Assembly: GCF_002210425.1 (NCBI RefSeq) | Contig: NZ_MWQK01000002.1 | Span: 1-64,000 of the forward strand | Source of the DNA: Fibrobacter sp. UWB2 | GTDB lineage: Bacteria; Fibrobacterota; Fibrobacteria; Fibrobacterales; Fibrobacteraceae | Direction: 5' to 3' | Length of the DNA: 64,000 nt | Shown here: in pieces, positions 58-12,981 of the stretch | How the letters are laid out: every line of letters begins with the position of its first letter | Numbering within the stretch: position 1 is the first letter of the stretch | Notes under the pieces: generated by a model | The model's input: the letters and a program-made list of their open reading frames with translations, nothing else | What the model was told of the DNA's origin: nothing | Databases searched by the model: none | Program-made: the position numbers and the translations under genes

Positions 58-98
58 GGGCCCCTTGAGGAAATCCTCGAGGGGCCCTTTCTTGTTTT
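58..98 (+). terminator. Rho-independent terminator of the rRNA operon
   Basis: GGGCCCC at 58-64 pairs with GGGGCCC at 81-87, extended inward by TGAGGA/TCCTCG, and is followed by TTTCTTGTTTT. It directly follows the 5S gene. Positions 100-220 hold nothing I recognise. Confidence 0.9.
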
Positions 99-234: not shown

Positions 235-2091
235 ATGAATCCTAGAATATCCTTTGTATTGCAGATGTCGCCATCGACCTCGTATGAAAACCTTGAGGCG
301 GTCGCGCGTAACTTGCTCGAAGGATTGAATGTTCTTCTGAATTCGGAACAGGTAAAGTGCTCCATCTTCTTGGATGGGCCTGTGATTGAGGCGCTTTATA
401 ATGTGGCAAAGCCGTTGATGTTCGGTAAAATTCAGAATGCGATTCGCAATGGGGTTCTCGAATTTTTAGGCGGTGGCTATTACGATCCGATGCTTCCGCT
501 TTTCCCAGAAGATTTGCAGACGATGCAGCTGGAGTTGCATCGCGACTACTTGAAGAAGGTGCTTGGCGCAGAACCGCAGGGATATTTCAATTCCTCGCTG
601 GTGTGGGAGCCGGGCATGGCCGATGTTCTGGAGCGTTCCCGTTTTGATTATGCGCTAGTGACGGAAGCGGCTGTGCAAGATGCGCTTGGACGCTCGACAC
701 CTGTATCTGGCTGGTTTACGCTTGAAGACCGTGGTGCGCTTATCCGCATTGTCCCCGTGTCCGAGGTTCTTTCGAAGGCAATTGCCGAAGACAATCTTTC
801 TTGGCGCTCGGTAGCGGAACAGTATTGCCGTGATGGAAAGTCTGCTATTGCGCTTTTGGATATTCCGTCGGAACCTACCGAGATTATTGAATTCTTCGGG
901 CGTTTTGTAGACTTTGTCGAGATGAATGAGGTTCAGACTAGAACCGTTGGTTTTGCGGTAGATCAGCTCGAAACTTGCGGTACGATTAGCTTCCTTGTTT
1001 CGGCGGGCCGCAGGCTAGGGCTGCCTTCGACAGCACGCACTTGTCGAGAACTTTTGATTCGCCGTCCAGAAATCAATATGCACCACAAGTCTTTCCTGAA
1101 TTTGTACAGGAGAGCTCGCAGTGTGCTTTCGGGCAAGAAGTGGCTCGAATTCTGCCATGCGCTTTTGCCGGCGATGGCTCCGCTTTATTTTAGGGATATG
1201 CACAACCGCTCGGGCATGCGTTCCATGATGGTGCGCAAACGCTCGAATCGCATGTTGCTTTCGGCATCGCAAGTTCTCGATGACCTTACTGGATTCTCTG
1301 GGCTTCGCGTGGATGTGTGCGACTTTTTGCTCCGTGGCAAAAAAGTTCTCTTTTGTGAAAACCCGGAATCATCTTACTTGCTCGACTACCGCATTGGCGG
1401 GGCGCTCCGTGCGTGGAATTACAAGGGTGCAAAGATGAATCTCGTGAACTCTTGGCGCGATGACGGCGAACCTTCGTTTGCCTTCTTGGATTGCCTTGTG
1501 CCGAATGTGGACTTTACTCCGGTCAAGCTGGAGCAGATGCTCTACGACCGCAAGCACTTGCTTGCAGACCCGTATGACTATCGGATTCTGCGTTCGGACG
1601 TTGGCACTGAGATTATGTTAGACGAGGAACAGGGCTTTGACAATGAAGAGCGCAAGGCTTTGTTCAAAATAAAGAAAGTCTTTACGTTCCAGGGTGACGC
1701 TGCCAAGTTTACCGTTTCGTATGCGATTGACAATCTTGCGTATGTGAACACGAAGGGCTATTTCGGGACGATTCTCGAGCTCGGGCTTTTGTCGCATGGC
1801 GATGTCAACAAAGTCTGGATTGACGGCAAGAATGTCAAGTGGAATATGGTGGAGCCACTTTTGTACCCGGATGGCCAGTCGCTTGAAATTCGCGATGAAA
1901 AGGCCGGTTGCGTGTTCCGCATGGCTTTTGACCGACCGACGTCTATCTTTATCGGCTCTATTTTTGGAGCGACTTCAACCGCAGCTCCGCAAGCGTTCCA
2001 GGGCATTCGCGTGTTCCCGTTCTGGAATGCTCCGTTCAACGTGCTTGACCGCAAGGCGTTCAAGATTTCCGTGTCGGTGACGAAGAGGTAA
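235..2091 (+). CDS. GH57-fold (4-alpha-glucanotransferase/alpha-amylase-like) protein, probably catalytically inactive
   Basis: A 618-residue protein with the overall plan of GH57 enzymes: an N-terminal (beta/alpha)7-like part and a C-terminal beta-rich part resembling the DUF1925/1926 region of 4-alpha-glucanotransferases. The second conserved GH57 region is clear (GGGYYDPMLPLFPEDLQ near residue 80). However the N-terminal HQP motif is replaced (FVLQMSPS), region 3, normally W-x-x-E-R-V-W-x-P with Glu as nucleophile, reads NSSLVWEP with Ser at the Glu position, and no GDDGEKFG-like acid/base motif is visible. The fold assignment rests on family knowledge and the loss of activity is inference. 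It is first in a tight cluster with a STAS-like protein (3-nt gap) and a lytic transglycosylase. The sequence TATTCT lies 7 nt before the ATG, so the mRNA may be leaderless. Confidence 0.7.
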   Translation: MNPRISFVLQMSPSTSYENLEAVARNLLEGLNVLLNSEQVKCSIFLDGPVIEALYNVAKPLMFGKIQNAIRNGVLEFLGGGYYDPMLPLFPEDLQTMQLELHRDYLKKVLGAEPQGYFNSSLVWEPGMADVLERSRFDYALVTEAAVQDALGRSTPVSGWFTLEDRGALIRIVPVSEVLSKAIAEDNLSWRSVAEQYCRDGKSAIALLDIPSEPTEIIEFFGRFVDFVEMNEVQTRTVGFAVDQLETCGTISFLVSAGRRLGLPSTARTCRELLIRRPEINMHHKSFLNLYRRARSVLSGKKWLEFCHALLPAMAPLYFRDMHNRSGMRSMMVRKRSNRMLLSASQVLDDLTGFSGLRVDVCDFLLRGKKVLFCENPESSYLLDYRIGGALRAWNYKGAKMNLVNSWRDDGEPSFAFLDCLVPNVDFTPVKLEQMLYDRKHLLADPYDYRILRSDVGTEIMLDEEQGFDNEERKALFKIKKVFTFQGDAAKFTVSYAIDNLAYVNTKGYFGTILELGLLSHGDVNKVWIDGKNVKWNMVEPLLYPDGQSLEIRDEKAGCVFRMAFDRPTSIFIGSIFGATSTAAPQAFQGIRVFPFWNAPFNVLDRKAFKISVSVTKR

Positions 2092-2094
2092 TCT

Positions 2095-2784
2095 GTGCGT
2101 GCGGACTTGATTGACATTCAGGTTGAAGATCGCGGCGAAGAAGTCGAGATTTCGCTGTACGGAATTCTTGGCGAATACCAGCTTTCGGCTGTCCGTGAAA
2201 AACTTGAAATGCTTGTGCGTGGCCCGGGCGTGTTTTTCTTTGTGAATCTCCAGAACGCTCGATTCACGACGGAAGCTTACCGCGGCTTGTTCCTTGAAAT
2301 TCTGAATTTGGTCAAGCAGCAGAAGGCTTCCCTTATTTTGTTGTTTGATAGCGAGGAACTGCACGCTTATTTTGACCGCTATCGCAATATCTTTGAAATT
2401 TATAAGAATCGCGAGGAATACCGCAAGTCTGGGCTTTCGAAGCAGGTGCACCTGGTCGGATTGCATTACGAGAAAAAGGCGATTAGCTTATCTCCTGGTT
2501 TTGCGATTTCTGTTGCCTTGTTCCTGATTGGTTGGGCCGTTACGTTATTTGTTATTGTCGTGGGGCAGGGACGTGAAATTTCTGATAAGCAGGCGCAGAT
2601 TACGGCGCTCGAAAGCCAGAAGGCGCGTTACATCCGCGAAATTGACCGCCTGGAATCGGCGATTGGCCCGATGCGTAAGCTGGGCGTTGTGCAGGACACG
2701 ACTTTGCTGAGTTCCTTTGGCGCCATCCAGGACTGGGTTACTTATTTGGAATACTTGGAGAAGACTCGTCGTGAAAAAAAGTAG
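2095..2784 (+). CDS. STAS-like domain protein with membrane segment and coiled coil
   Basis: 229 residues, GTG start 3 nt after the previous stop. Residues 1-125 look like a STAS (anti-sigma-factor antagonist-like) alpha/beta domain: strands VEISLYGIL and VFFFVNLQN alternate with helices. A single hydrophobic segment (AISVALFLIGWAVTLFVIVV, about residues 138-157) is followed by a predicted coiled coil (residues 160-190) rich in charged heptads. The STAS-like part would be cytoplasmic and the coiled coil on the other side of the membrane, or the reverse. Its end overlaps the start of the lytic transglycosylase, so the two are probably translationally coupled and may act together at the cell wall. 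Function is not established. Confidence 0.6.
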   Translation: MRADLIDIQVEDRGEEVEISLYGILGEYQLSAVREKLEMLVRGPGVFFFVNLQNARFTTEAYRGLFLEILNLVKQQKASLILLFDSEELHAYFDRYRNIFEIYKNREEYRKSGLSKQVHLVGLHYEKKAISLSPGFAISVALFLIGWAVTLFVIVVGQGREISDKQAQITALESQKARYIREIDRLESAIGPMRKLGVVQDTTLLSSFGAIQDWVTYLEYLEKTRREKK

Positions 2785-3460
2785 CGTTCGTCTCTCCGCG
2801 ATGAGCGTAAGCGTCCTGTTTATCATTGGCTTTGCGGTTTTGTTTTTCTTTGCGAGCGAATGGTATTCCAACAGCGTCAAACTTGAAAAGCTTGCCTATA
2901 AGGAACGCATTCTCCATAACGATATGGAACATTTGGAGGTGGTGGGCAAGTGGACGCTCGATTACGTAAAAATCGAAAAGGCGCTCACGTACATGCTTGG
3001 CGACCGCGTTTCCGAGGTGAGTTTCCGCATGTTGGCTGAAAATCTGTGGCAGATTTCGCAGTCGTATTCGCTGGATCCGCTGATTGTCCTTGCTGTTGTC
3101 GTGCAGGAAAGCCGTGGAAACCCGCTTGCCCGTGGACGTTTCCAGACGGGTAAATTTTCGGGTGCGCTTGGTTTGATGCAGATAAAATTGGAAACCGCTA
3201 AAAAAATTGGCCGCCGGTTTGGTCTTGTTATAGAAAGCGAAGACGACTTGATGCGCCCGGAAGTGAACGTGGTTGTGGGCTCGGCTTACCTGATTCGCCT
3301 GATTGGAAAGTATGGCAATTTGAGGGAGGCGCTAGTGGCGTACAATCTTGGCCATACCGCTGTCGATAAGCTCCTTGAAAAGAATGCTCCGCTCCCGACT
3401 TCTTACTATGAAGGTGTTGTGAGGCGATACAAGGATTTAGTGGCGCACTGTTCCTACTAA
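2771..3460 (+). CDS. Membrane-anchored lytic transglycosylase (SLT domain)
   Basis: 229 residues from the GTG at 2771, which overlaps the upstream gene by 14 nt; an in-frame upstream start (2717) would lie deep inside that gene. An N-terminal membrane anchor (residues 11-30) precedes a Lys/Glu-rich stalk and a goose-type lysozyme/SLT domain. The catalytic Glu is in VQESRGNPLARG, followed by the family motifs GALGLMQI and ALVAYNLG. Such enzymes cleave peptidoglycan glycan strands between MurNAc and GlcNAc, giving 1,6-anhydroMurNAc ends. The context with a membrane STAS-like partner suggests regulated wall remodelling. Confidence 0.85.
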   Translation: MKKSSVRLSAMSVSVLFIIGFAVLFFFASEWYSNSVKLEKLAYKERILHNDMEHLEVVGKWTLDYVKIEKALTYMLGDRVSEVSFRMLAENLWQISQSYSLDPLIVLAVVVQESRGNPLARGRFQTGKFSGALGLMQIKLETAKKIGRRFGLVIESEDDLMRPEVNVVVGSAYLIRLIGKYGNLREALVAYNLGHTAVDKLLEKNAPLPTSYYEGVVRRYKDLVAHCSY

Positions 3461-3531: not shown

Positions 3532-4920
3532 GTGATTAAGAATTTGTTTTTTATTCTTGCAATGACGGGGATCGCCTTGGCGGGCGAAGTCCGTTATGAC
3601 TGTTTGCGCTTTGTGGAACAGGGGCTTGCGAGTGACCCGCAGATGGAAGAACTGCGTTACGGCACCGAGGCCAAGAAAAATAAGATCAAGTCGCTCAAGT
3701 CCGAAGTCATTTTGCCGACATTTTATGTGTCGATGATGGTGGGGCCTGCTCCGGGTCTCAAGGAATACAACGATTACTATTTCAATGATTCCGGGGATAC
3801 CCTGGGAATCGAAAAAGCCGAAAAGTACGATTTCTCTAGAATGGGACCTTTCTGGGGTGTCGAAGCCAAGTTTATCCAACCGTTAAATTTGGGCCAGTAC
3901 CGTACGGGCAAGCGGGCTTTGGAAGCCGATTTGCAGCAAAAAACTTTTGAAATCGAAAACTCGACGCTCAAGAAAGAAGTTGAACTCCAGAGCTACTATT
4001 ACAACTATCTCCTTGCTCTTGAAATGAAGCGCATTGCTGCCGATGCCCAGAAGCAGGTGGACAAGGCATACGACCAGCTCGAAGAGGCTTTGGACGAAGA
4101 TGAACCGACGGTTTCGCAGACGGACCTTTTGAACTTGAAGGCTAAAATGCATACAGTCAAGGAAGGCGTCATCGAGGCTGACCTTGGCATGAAGCGTGTG
4201 CAGCTGGCGATTCGTTTTGCGCTTGGCTTGCAGGAAGGCGAAACTTTTGCCGCCGAAGATACAATCCTTGCGATGAGACCGGAACCGATGCCGACGGAAG
4301 ATCAGGTTCGCGAGTTCACCATCAAGCACAATCCTGAACTGAAACAGCTCGAAGCGGGGTTGCGTGCACGTCGATTCCAGATGGATCTGGCAGAGGCGAA
4401 GCTTGCTCCAGAATTCTTTGTCATGGGGCAGTTTGAATACGTGAAGAGTTGGGCCGGTAACCGTAACGTGGTCCAGAAAAACGCTTTTGCCCAAGATGCC
4501 GTGAACAAGATTTCGGGGGTTTTCGGTATTGGCTTGAGGTACCGTTTGAACTTCTGGAAGAGCTGGGAAGATTTCCGCCAGGCGAGAACGGAATATCGCG
4601 GTCTTAAGCTGAAGGAAAACTACGCCTCGGAAGGACTTGTGGCCAAGGCTGTTGAACAGTATTATCAGGTGGTGGCCGCCAAGGGGAAACTTGACGCTTT
4701 GCGTGAAAGTTTGCGTGCAACAGAATCGCTTTTGAAAGATGCCGCCATGAAATACGACCTCGATAAGTCCCAAACTAGCGCTCTTGTATCGGCCTATACG
4801 CAGAATATAACCATGCAAAAAGATTATTATTTCGCAGTTTGCCGATATAACGTCGAATTTGCCGGATTAGTGGCAAAGATGGGGTTGTCTCTTAGCGACT
4901 ATAAAACGTATTTTAAGTAA
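3532..4920 (+). CDS. TolC-family outer membrane channel protein
   Basis: 462 residues with an N-terminal signal peptide (MIKNLFFILAMTGIALAG) and the long alternating helical and beta-hairpin pattern of outer-membrane efflux proteins (OEP family), duplicated across the length as in TolC. GTG start, with TAAATT at 3520-3525 placed 6 nt before it. The next gene, mlaC-like, follows after 18 nt with a good AGAGGAG site, so both are probably co-transcribed. No inner-membrane efflux pump or periplasmic adaptor is nearby. The substrate is unknown; the pairing with MlaC hints at lipid-related transport but could be incidental. Confidence 0.75.
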   Translation: MIKNLFFILAMTGIALAGEVRYDCLRFVEQGLASDPQMEELRYGTEAKKNKIKSLKSEVILPTFYVSMMVGPAPGLKEYNDYYFNDSGDTLGIEKAEKYDFSRMGPFWGVEAKFIQPLNLGQYRTGKRALEADLQQKTFEIENSTLKKEVELQSYYYNYLLALEMKRIAADAQKQVDKAYDQLEEALDEDEPTVSQTDLLNLKAKMHTVKEGVIEADLGMKRVQLAIRFALGLQEGETFAAEDTILAMRPEPMPTEDQVREFTIKHNPELKQLEAGLRARRFQMDLAEAKLAPEFFVMGQFEYVKSWAGNRNVVQKNAFAQDAVNKISGVFGIGLRYRLNFWKSWEDFRQARTEYRGLKLKENYASEGLVAKAVEQYYQVVAAKGKLDALRESLRATESLLKDAAMKYDLDKSQTSALVSAYTQNITMQKDYYFAVCRYNVEFAGLVAKMGLSLSDYKTYFK

Positions 4921-4938: not shown

Positions 4939-5517
4939 ATGTTTAAGAAAATTTTGATCGCTATTGCCTGTGCTTCGCTCTTGTCTTTTGCTGCCGAAGA
5001 TCCGGTGTCTGTTGTGAAGAGCAAGGACGTTGAACTGCAGAATATCATCAAGAAGTCCAAGCGTACCGCCAAGGAAACGGAACGCGTCAAGAACCTTTTG
5101 AATGATTCCTTTGACTTTGCTCTCTTGGCCAAGAAGTCCTTGGCCGCTAGTGACTGGAAGGCTCAGGACGAAGCTTCTCAGCAGAAGTTTGTGACGGAAT
5201 TCCAGCGCATGGTTCGCAATTCCAGTGCAAACCGCTTGGAACTTTATCGCGCCGATTCTACGATTTATGAACCGGCCAAGATGAAGGGCTCGGACGACGC
5301 TCGCGTGATTGCTCATTTGTGGAACAAGGGTAAGGAATCGGTGCTCGAATACAAGATGACGCTTGTGAATGGCAAGTGGAAGGCTTGGGACTTGGTCATC
5401 GATGACCTTTCTACGGCTCGCAACTACAAGGAACAGTTCAGCAAAATCTTGAAAGACAAGAGCTTTGCCGAATTGATCGACATTATCAGCAAGAAGGCTG
5501 ACGAAGCCGAAAAGTAA
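4939..5517 (+). CDS. mlaC: MlaC/Ttg2D-family periplasmic phospholipid-binding protein
   Basis: 192 residues with a signal peptide (MFKKILIAIACASLLSFA). The mature part matches the Tol-Tol-Ttg2 (MlaC) family: a helical N-terminal region with FDFALLAKKSLA, then a region LAASDWKAQDEASQQKFVTE typical of MlaC, a beta-sheet segment (VLEYKMTLVNGKWKAWDLVI) and DLSTARNYKEQFSKIL. MlaC shuttles phospholipids between outer and inner membranes in the Mla pathway. Here the genes for MlaE, MlaF and MlaD are absent from the neighbourhood; an MCE (MlaD-like) gene lies 53 kb away. Its stop overlaps the next start by one base. Confidence 0.8.
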   Translation: MFKKILIAIACASLLSFAAEDPVSVVKSKDVELQNIIKKSKRTAKETERVKNLLNDSFDFALLAKKSLAASDWKAQDEASQQKFVTEFQRMVRNSSANRLELYRADSTIYEPAKMKGSDDARVIAHLWNKGKESVLEYKMTLVNGKWKAWDLVIDDLSTARNYKEQFSKILKDKSFAELIDIISKKADEAEK

Positions 5518-11014: not shown

Positions 11015-11059
11015 ACACAAAAATCCAATTAGAATTGTTAAATAAATCACTCTTTTTTT

Positions 11060-11088
11060 TTGCAAATGTTCAAAAAATATTCTATATA
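11060..11088 (+). promoter_or_regulatory. Promoter of the HD-GYP gene, giving a leaderless mRNA
   Basis: TTGCAA (11060-11065), exactly 17 nt, TATATA (11083-11088), then 6 nt to the GTG at 11095. This supports GTG 11095 as the true start, because the expected transcription start coincides with it and the in-frame TTG at 11035 lies upstream of the promoter. Confidence 0.7.
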
Positions 11089-11094
11089 CAGGAT

Positions 11095-12981
11095 GTGAAA
11101 ACTTTTGTTTCTGCCCATAAGCTCGTTCAGATTATTATCCTGATTGTCATTGGTATAGTCATCAACCGACTGCTTGCCGATTTAGCCATTCATTTTGAAT
11201 TGCCGCTGTACCTGGATAGCGTGGGTACGATTGTCGTGGCGGTGATTGGCGGGTTTAGCCCTGGCGCGATTGTCGGGTTCTTGACGAACTTCATTGGCGG
11301 TTTTGTTGATTCTTCGACGTTCTACTACGGCACGATTAATGTGATGATTGCTGTGTGCGCGGGGATTGCGGCAAGGCGTGGTGCGTTCCATAAGATTACA
11401 CGTTTGCCGATGCTGCTTGGAATGTTGATGATTTTGAGCATCCCGTGCTCGGTGCTTTCGTACTTCCTGTTTGACTTTAAGATTGCCGAAAATGTGGTGA
11501 CGCCGATTGCAACGGCGCTTCATGAAAGCGGCCTGCCTGTTCTCTTGTCTCAGATTTTGGCGGACTTCTGCACGGAAATTCCGGATAAGTCCATTTCGAT
11601 TATTGTGGCTTATGTGCTGATTCGCTTGACGCCGCGCTGGTTTGTCAAGGCGTTTGATTCTGTTTCGGGCCGCTCGCACGAAGACCATTACCGTTCCAAG
11701 AACGAAATCCATACGCTTAAGGCCCAGGTGACGGCGCTCTTGTTCGTGTCGAGCTTTGCACTTGCGGTGGTTGCTACGGCGGTCGCTTACAAGACGTATT
11801 CCGAAGCGGAAATCCATGAGACAACGCTTTTGGCGGAATCGGTGAACAGGCTTGTGTCGGACGCTATCCAGAATGCGGATTCGGCGACGCTTCACGAGTA
11901 CATTCATGACCTCAAGGGTAAGCATCCGCGCATTTTGACGATTACGCCGGGCATGCATGAGACGGGCAAGTGGGATGTCTCGATTGTCTGTACTGAGGCC
12001 CCGAATCCGGTCTGTACCAAGTTCAGTCTCGCTGCGATTCGCATTAGCGTGGTGCTGTTCTGCACGAAGATTTTCTCGACGCTGTTTGGACTTTTGCTCG
12101 CAATCGTGTTTACGGCTATCTTGATTGCTAACCGCAGAGTGGTTTACCCGATTCACGAAATGACGCTTGAAATGGACCATTTTGCCTACGATAGTAGCGT
12201 TGGGCGGCGGACGTCGATTGAGCAAATCAAGGGCCTTGAAGTGGTGACGGGCAATGAAATTGAGAATCTGCATTCGGCGATTATCAAGGCGGTCGAAGAA
12301 ATTGATTTGTACATCAACAAGTCCGAGTATCAGGCGGCCTCGATTGCGGCTCTCCAGACGAACATCATTACGGTGCTTGGCGATATGGTGGAAAACCGCG
12401 ACGAGACGACGGGTGGACATGTGCGCCGTACGGCGGCTTATGCCGAACTCATTGCTCGAGAATTGAAGGATCGCGGCAAGGAACCCGAAATTGACGATGC
12501 GTTTGTTTCGACGATTGCGGTGGCGGCTCCGCTCCACGATATCGGCAAGATTAACATTTCTGACGTGATTTTGAATAAGCCGGGCAAGCTGACGGACGAA
12601 GAATTTGCTGAAATGAAAAAGCACACGGTCTATGGCCGCGATATGCTCGTGCGTGCATCTAAGAACCTGGGCGAGACGGCTTACCTCAAGATGGCAAAGG
12701 AAATTGCCTATAGCCACCACGAATGGTGGGATGGCTCGCGAGGCTATCCGGAACGCTTGAAAGGAAAGGATATTCCGCTTTCGGCACGCATTATGGCGGT
12801 TGCGGATGTGTATGACGCGCTTGTTTCGGAACGTCCGTACAAGAAGGCTTTCTCGGTGGACGAGGCTGTCCGCATTATTACCGAGGAAAGTGGTACGCAC
12901 TTTGACCCGGAAGTGGTCGATGCTTTCGTGAAAAACCGCGAAACCGTCGAACAAATCATGAAAACCAAGTTCGAAGATTGA
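11095..12981 (+). CDS. Membrane-bound HD-GYP domain protein (putative c-di-GMP phosphodiesterase)
   Basis: 628 residues from GTG 11095. Residues 1-175 form five to six membrane helices resembling an ECF-transporter S-component/MASE-like sensor (LDSVGTIVVAVIGGFSPGAI). A further helix near 215, an extracytoplasmic region, and a helix near 330 follow, then a HAMP-like/coiled segment and the HD-GYP domain (about 440-620): APLHDIGKI, NKPGKLTDEEFAEMKKH, YSHHEWWDGSRGYPERLKG with the GYP motif, and MAVADVYDAL. HD-GYP proteins hydrolyse c-di-GMP to GMP. The membrane part may sense a small ligand. Monocistronic; the sequence after it holds a hairpin repeat and a terminator. Confidence 0.85.
   Translation: MKTFVSAHKLVQIIILIVIGIVINRLLADLAIHFELPLYLDSVGTIVVAVIGGFSPGAIVGFLTNFIGGFVDSSTFYYGTINVMIAVCAGIAARRGAFHKITRLPMLLGMLMILSIPCSVLSYFLFDFKIAENVVTPIATALHESGLPVLLSQILADFCTEIPDKSISIIVAYVLIRLTPRWFVKAFDSVSGRSHEDHYRSKNEIHTLKAQVTALLFVSSFALAVVATAVAYKTYSEAEIHETTLLAESVNRLVSDAIQNADSATLHEYIHDLKGKHPRILTITPGMHETGKWDVSIVCTEAPNPVCTKFSLAAIRISVVLFCTKIFSTLFGLLLAIVFTAILIANRRVVYPIHEMTLEMDHFAYDSSVGRRTSIEQIKGLEVVTGNEIENLHSAIIKAVEEIDLYINKSEYQAASIAALQTNIITVLGDMVENRDETTGGHVRRTAAYAELIARELKDRGKEPEIDDAFVSTIAVAAPLHDIGKINISDVILNKPGKLTDEEFAEMKKHTVYGRDMLVRASKNLGETAYLKMAKEIAYSHHEWWDGSRGYPERLKGKDIPLSARIMAVADVYDALVSERPYKKAFSVDEAVRIITEESGTHFDPEVVDAFVKNRETVEQIMKTKFED

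Follow-up and report, generated by a model that had tools for sequence, protein, structure and literature searches.

Proteins of glycoside hydrolase family 57 (GH57) that are bacterial, related to 4-alpha-glucanotransferases, and missing one or both catalytic residues have been described as "4AGT-like" proteins, 63 of which, with a listed length of 623, were recognized by their sequences with no role assigned in the accessible part of that source (PMC6037648). The gene analyzed here, at 235..2091 on the forward strand of a 64,000-nucleotide stretch from Fibrobacter sp. UWB2 (assembly GCF_002210425.1, contig NZ_MWQK01000002.1, positions 1 to 64,000; the whole stretch is hereafter called the window), encodes a protein of 618 amino acids that falls under this definition and has lost both catalytic residues. 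By that account, a dead GH57 protein as such is not new. Unlike the window protein, whose gene is followed by those for a STAS-domain membrane protein and a lytic transglycosylase, the 4AGT-like proteins are given no genomic partners in the accessible part of PMC6037648, and the word "Fibrobacter" is absent from its main text. No report joining a GH57-like protein with STAS and transglycosylase genes was found in the PubMed Central (PMC) literature, a scope outside which most subscription journals lie; one candidate, PMC11109978, contains both "STAS domain" and "lytic transglycosylase" in its accessible part, there for unrelated RNA motifs. Because 4AGT-like proteins have been described and the trio is unreported in the PMC literature, we regard the protein as a known kind in a new, conserved context. 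FSU_1169 and Fisuc_0668 are labelled GH57 in two papers.

Four further systems bear comparison. The 4-alpha-glucanotransferase of Thermococcus litoralis (1k1w) has the order of its parts in common with the window protein over most of the length, the latter differing in the lack of the nucleophile, the acid/base motif, and the HQP and YWHG motifs. SpoIIAA-type anti-sigma-factor antagonists (1th8) share their STAS domain, as predicted from the family profile, with the middle protein of the trio, which differs from them by a membrane helix and a helical segment after that domain. FtsEX, with EnvC or PcsB, exerts cytoplasmic control over a periplasmic wall hydrolase through a membrane protein and a coiled coil. 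This control logic resembles the one proposed below for the trio, which differs in having no ABC ATPase, in having its cytoplasmic end made up of a dead amylase plus a STAS domain, and in having a hydrolase that is itself membrane-anchored. Finally, OpgH and UgtP are glycosyltransferases that act on FtsZ and couple nutrients to division; their likeness to our proposal is the use of a sugar-enzyme fold as a cytoplasmic metabolic sensor for growth or division, and no homology to the window pseudoenzyme is claimed.

The GH57-like protein and its catalytic positions

The open reading frame at 235..2091 is intact and begins with ATG. Residues 38-184 of the 618-residue product match Pfam Glyco_hydro_57 (E=1.8e-17; 64 bits versus a curated cut-off of 21.2), placing the protein in the GH57 sequence family, and its C terminus matches AmyA-gluTrfs_C (PF09095) under the cut-off (E=0.0033), a domain that scores over the cut-off in one distant family member (E=3.9e-10). 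Its top PDB sequence match is 1k1w (E=1.9e-13), to which the profile of the pseudoenzyme family aligns with E=5.4e-49 over chain residues 23-274 and, separately, over 313-590, and in hhalign the family and its active relatives align over 620 columns with a probability of 100. On these comparisons, the homology to GH57 4-alpha-glucanotransferases is one that spans the full length of the protein. By hydropathy, the window protein has no membrane helix, and of the 27 pseudoenzymes analyzed, 26 likewise gave none, the lone positive being a marginal C-terminal stretch. GH57 genes number three in 23 of the 25 Fibrobacter genomes searched, including that of the window (G000), where the gene studied here is one of the three, and two in the other 2. 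A 99% identical copy of the gene is carried by a metagenome-assembled Fibrobacter succinogenes genome (L031).

To compare the catalytic columns, 35 pseudoenzymes representing eight Fibrobacterota families were aligned with 6 active relatives of the same phylum; many rows are stop-to-stop open frames whose leading residues are perhaps untranslated. The string TERVWQP of 1k1w pairs with SSLVWEP of the window protein, so that the nucleophile Glu falls on Ser121 (codon 595..597, forward strand), a position given by the 1k1w alignment and the family alignment alike. Glu occupies this column in none of the 35 pseudoenzymes versus all 6 active relatives (AERVWEP); the column holds Ser in 17 rows (Fibrobacteraceae and family f2), Leu in 1 (genus g10), Gly in 2 (f4), and Phe in 15 (f8 and f10-f13). 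The acid/base motif of the active relatives, DDGEKFGDWP, is absent from 35/35 members, in which the stretch is shortened; in the window protein, this site corresponds to about residues 202-216 (838..882, forward strand), with the exact pairing varying between alignments. In addition, HQP (conserved sequence region 1, CSR-1) and YWHG (CSR-5) were found in none of the 35 aligned members, one CSR-1 His being retained within an HPYKN-like string in several members of f8, f10, f11, and f13. The window protein therefore has none of the features expected of an active GH57 enzyme, namely, the CSR-3 Glu, the CSR-4 Asp, HQP, and YWHG.

In the phylogenetic tree, all 35 dead proteins fall to the same side of a branch supported at 100/100, for which a long-branch warning applies and the root is arbitrary; family f4 has two GH57 copies, one dead and one active. 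Judging from the aligned sequences, the catalytic machinery was probably lost long ago. Ratios of nonsynonymous to synonymous substitution rates (dN/dS) against 11 close orthologues ranged from 0.031 to 0.099, rough values considering that dS exceeded 1 in several pairs, and pooled values over six segments of the gene, likewise rough, ranged from 0.032 to 0.071. The range of 0.031 to 0.099 indicates purifying selection and therefore a gene that is not decaying. The original prediction, made from the letters of the window, had read LQMSPS at the HQP site and NSSLVWEP at the nucleophile site, with Ser in place of Glu, no acid/base motif, and an unbroken frame kept by selection. Both motif readings were correct, and the other points agree with the alignments and the substitution rates, one unconserved candidate acid (E213, see below) notwithstanding. 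Thus, its pseudoenzyme reading is supported, and the window protein is best interpreted as a catalytically dead GH57 protein of the 4-alpha-glucanotransferase type.

Conservation of the gene trio

The phylum search comprised 167 genomes, i.e., 80 of Fibrobacter, 31 of other Fibrobacteraceae, and 56 of other families. Strong matches to the pseudoenzyme were obtained in 143 of them (78/80, 27/31, and 38/56, respectively), and the two Fibrobacter genomes without one are 74% and 65% complete. All three genes were present in 24 of the 25 Fibrobacter genomes searched. Outside the Fibrobacteraceae, strong matches to the STAS membrane protein and to the transglycosylase were found in 37 genomes each, and the ordered trio lies on one contig in 35 of the 38 pseudoenzyme-bearing genomes, with gaps between profile matches of 0-126 bases from the first gene to the second and 11-235 from the second to the third. 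The exceptions are G047 and G080, with the genes spread over several contigs, and G050 (70% complete), in which a part of the first gene is all that was found. This count was made from strong rows, excluding weaker rows and the second pieces of split matches (G047, G052, and G053), and some of the first genes were matched partly or cut by a contig end. Family f8 includes one genome, G061, with the whole trio twice (contigs C197 and C244).

Outside the Fibrobacteraceae, the partners are also missing where the pseudoenzyme is missing. The 18 pseudoenzyme-less genomes there belong to families f3, f5, f6, f7, and f9: GH57 matches of f3 retain AERVWEP in 9/9 aligned sequences (ten f3 genomes, that of G037 left out), f5 and f6 gave weak matches only, and f7 and f9 gave none. 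Among the matches listed, none of these 18 genomes had a strong match to the STAS membrane protein or the dedicated transglycosylase, the best being 2.8e-11 and 1.0e-20, respectively, versus 2.9e-52 and 5.8e-66 or better for the genes counted as partners. Within the Fibrobacteraceae outside Fibrobacter, the pseudoenzyme and STAS genes are adjacent in all 12 genomes of genus g10 (G083-G094), considered further below, and the three genes are adjacent by coordinates in the remaining 15 pseudoenzyme-bearing genomes. Besides G164, also discussed below, the pseudoenzyme-less genomes of this family are G160, in which a contig starts within the STAS gene, G081 (73% complete), with the transglycosylase only, and G163 (78% complete), with neither partner. 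A contig scan with the single window protein as the query had retrieved 11 loci, all from Fibrobacter. The linkage of pseudoenzyme, STAS, and transglycosylase genes is strongly supported and runs far deeper than one genome shows.

The partner proteins and the flanking genes

The second gene (2095..2784, forward strand, GTG start) encodes a predicted STAS-domain protein that crosses the membrane with a single helix at residues 138-156 and carries a segment rich in heptads toward its C terminus. The window protein alone gave nothing for STAS in Pfam and an NCBIfam ant_ant_sig match under the cut-off (E=0.0019). Among its relatives, Pfam STAS scored over the cut-off in two f4 members and below it in one f2 member, and the family profile matched SpoIIAA 1th8 (E=3.4e-9); the predicted STAS identity is hence weak from the window protein alone and clear from the relatives. 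All 22 STAS proteins have a single membrane helix with a more positively charged N side, a bias that would favor an N-inside orientation. A heptad-rich segment follows the helix in the four members inspected, and the proteins end in the motif PL--LG, with an invariant Gly and with Pro and the second Leu conserved at at least 90%.

The third gene (2765..3460 with a provisional start, forward strand) encodes a membrane-anchored SLT lytic transglycosylase; its first bases fall within the 3' end of the STAS gene, and its longest open reading frame runs from 2717 to 3460 with a TTG start. The SLT domain scored 80.7 bits versus a cut-off of 21.3, and Glu115, Met138, Gln139, and Asn194 are invariant in 21/21 transglycosylases. 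Glu115 is, from what is known of the family, presumably the catalytic residue, and the product is accordingly a lytic transglycosylase of putative activity. One membrane helix near the N terminus was found in 19/21 members and two candidate segments in the other 2/21.

Beyond the trio, the neighborhood changes. An OEP-family outer-membrane protein (3532..4920, forward strand) and an MlaC-family protein (4939..5517, forward strand) come next in the window, and their genes adjoin the trio only in most of the Fibrobacteraceae loci read, genus g10 being the exception, and in family f2; neither was detected in the DNA retrieved on both sides of the trio from f4, f8, and f10-f13. Among 16 loci fetched from families other than Fibrobacteraceae and from the Fibrobacteraceae genus g9, a divergent gene for pyruvate phosphate dikinase (PPDK) immediately precedes the trio in 9 (L110, L123, L124, L125, L127, L131, L133, L134, and L136) and is missing in four, while L122, L126, and L132 end too near the gene to tell. 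One PPDK was identified by Pfam and the others by similarity to it, and the four neighbor proteins scanned in f4, f8, and f10-f13 were PPDK, an RNA methyltransferase, a GTPase, and a PHP-domain protein. Since it occurs in several families and in genus g9, the divergent PPDK-trio layout may be the older arrangement; as a link between the trio and central carbon metabolism, it is a hint and no more. Given this variation of the flanking genes, we reject the idea that conservation of the cluster extends past the trio. Of the original prediction's "cell-wall gene cluster," the tight linkage to a STAS-like membrane protein and a lytic transglycosylase has thus held well, with one contrary genome (G164), while the wider cluster has not, the neighbors changing between OEP/MlaC and PPDK.

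The start of the window coincides with a contig end (G000:C2:1), and bases 1-55 look, by eye only, like the tail of a 5S rRNA; an Rfam scan of the first 4000 window bases gave no RNA gene at E 0.01. A terminator-like hairpin of 13 pairs (58..87, forward strand) precedes the trio, the longest of 7 such sites in 5000 bases, with 6.7 expected by chance. Elsewhere, the pseudoenzyme gene of the Fibrobacter locus L076 is preceded by a 5S rRNA, and that of L035 (5569-5946), L040 (5403-5745), and L041 (5520-5905) is closely preceded by an RNase P RNA gene on the opposite strand. Farther along the window are a protein of the paralogous family TIGR02147 (9145-9972; "Fsuc_second," E=2.2e-106) and a protein (11035-12981) that matches an energy-coupling factor (ECF) transporter S component in its N-terminal part and a cyclic di-GMP phosphodiesterase in its C-terminal part, both under the cut-off.

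Possible roles of the trio

A noncatalytic glycan-binding or regulatory role, as originally suggested for the pseudoenzyme, is plausible, and the conserved neighborhood hints at cell-wall control from inside the cell. We lean, with little more than even confidence, toward an envelope module in which the dead GH57 protein, the STAS membrane protein, and the transglycosylase together place peptidoglycan cutting under cytoplasmic control. The likely location of the dead GH57 protein, as of its neighbor's STAS domain, is the cytoplasm, and that of the helical segments, as of the transglycosylase, is the periplasm. The pseudoenzyme would bind the STAS domain of its neighbor, which would span the inner membrane once and form a coiled coil in the periplasm with the membrane-anchored transglycosylase. 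The cutting would thereby be positioned or gated by a state of the cytoplasm, set most likely by a partner or by a ligand such as a sugar or alpha-glucan. The catalytic loss, the purifying selection, the gene order and co-occurrence, the N-inside bias of the STAS-protein helix, and the transglycosylase Glu are readings of the sequences; from them we infer which proteins touch, how a coiled coil would join two of them, what kind of ligand is bound, and in which direction and with what sign the control acts. A bolder form, in which a dead amylase senses alpha-glucan or sugar and a STAS relay switches the transglycosylase throughout the Fibrobacterota, coupling carbon reserves to wall remodelling, is speculative, and we consider it rather unlikely as a whole.

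Several observations weigh against the cytoplasmic-control proposal. The heptad periodicity of the C-terminal segment of the STAS protein is no more than suggestive of a coiled coil. The Ser that serves as the phosphorylation site of SpoIIAA-type STAS domains is unconserved in the STAS family here, the helix of the transglycosylase shows no charge bias that is consistent across members, and an AlphaFold model of the pseudoenzyme (12 sequences, the window and L031-L041) had a mean predicted local distance difference test score (pLDDT) of 40 and was unusable. One of three alignments, that of HMMER, pairs the acid/base Asp with E213 of the window protein. In genus g10, the transglycosylase is on another contig in 12/12 genomes, i.e., outside the operon, and this is not a mere contig break in G093 because other genes come after the STAS gene there. 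Moreover, G164 (94% complete) carries STAS, transglycosylase, OEP, and MlaC genes together (L168 = G164:C15), and the pseudoenzyme was not found in its genome, with no remnant in the 363 bases upstream of the STAS gene; the partners are therefore able to exist without it.

The last genome also speaks for the most viable alternative, in which the pseudoenzyme and the STAS protein form a scaffold that places the transglycosylase to open a gap in the wall for an envelope machine, with no ligand signal. This view, which is possible though we doubt it, gains from the OEP and MlaC genes, which come after the trio at the majority of the Fibrobacteraceae loci read as well as in f2, and from the likeness, in sub-cut-off NCBIfam scores, of the transglycosylase to ones associated with flagella or type III secretion. 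However, OEP and MlaC were not found at the loci fetched from f4, f8, and f10-f13, so that no single machine accompanies the trio.

It is improbable that the pseudoenzyme and the transglycosylase are mere operon neighbors with no common function. The displaced transglycosylase of g10 and the pseudoenzyme-free pair of G164 would fit such an arrangement, but the trio persists while both of its flanks vary, and the dedicated partners are jointly missing from the 18 non-Fibrobacteraceae genomes without a pseudoenzyme. Genus g10 suggests that, of the two partners, the STAS protein is the closer one, since the pair of dead GH57 and STAS genes was kept there after the transglycosylase had left.

A protein that is still an enzyme, carrying out a different reaction with other acidic residues, is more improbable still. 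Glu76 and Glu164 are invariant in 27/27 aligned members, and E213 offers an acid at the acid/base place in the one alignment mentioned above; yet Glu164 is also present in the active relatives and is therefore likely inherited structure, and the E213 place holds D or E in only 8/35 members (counted by eye) and is thus not a conserved acid. One f2 member passes the Pfam polysaccharide deacetylase cut-off (Polysacc_deac_1, 26.3 versus 23.1 bits), but a metal-dependent deacetylase is disfavored because no His or Asp is invariant, Asp363 alone reaching at least 90% in the later part of the protein. The over-cut-off Pfam match might speak for an ordinary GH57 amylase or glucanotransferase that is active, or for a gene in decay, but this reading can be set aside as extremely improbable, the catalytic residues being gone in all 35 aligned members and the frame being intact in the window under a dN/dS of 0.031 to 0.099.

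Under the cytoplasmic-control proposal, the partnership with a STAS protein and a transglycosylase would give a dead GH57 protein a concrete place, namely, in the cytoplasmic control of peptidoglycan cutting. If true, this would be a new inside-to-outside route for the regulation of wall hydrolases, in a phylum, the Fibrobacterota, that includes major degraders of plant fiber.
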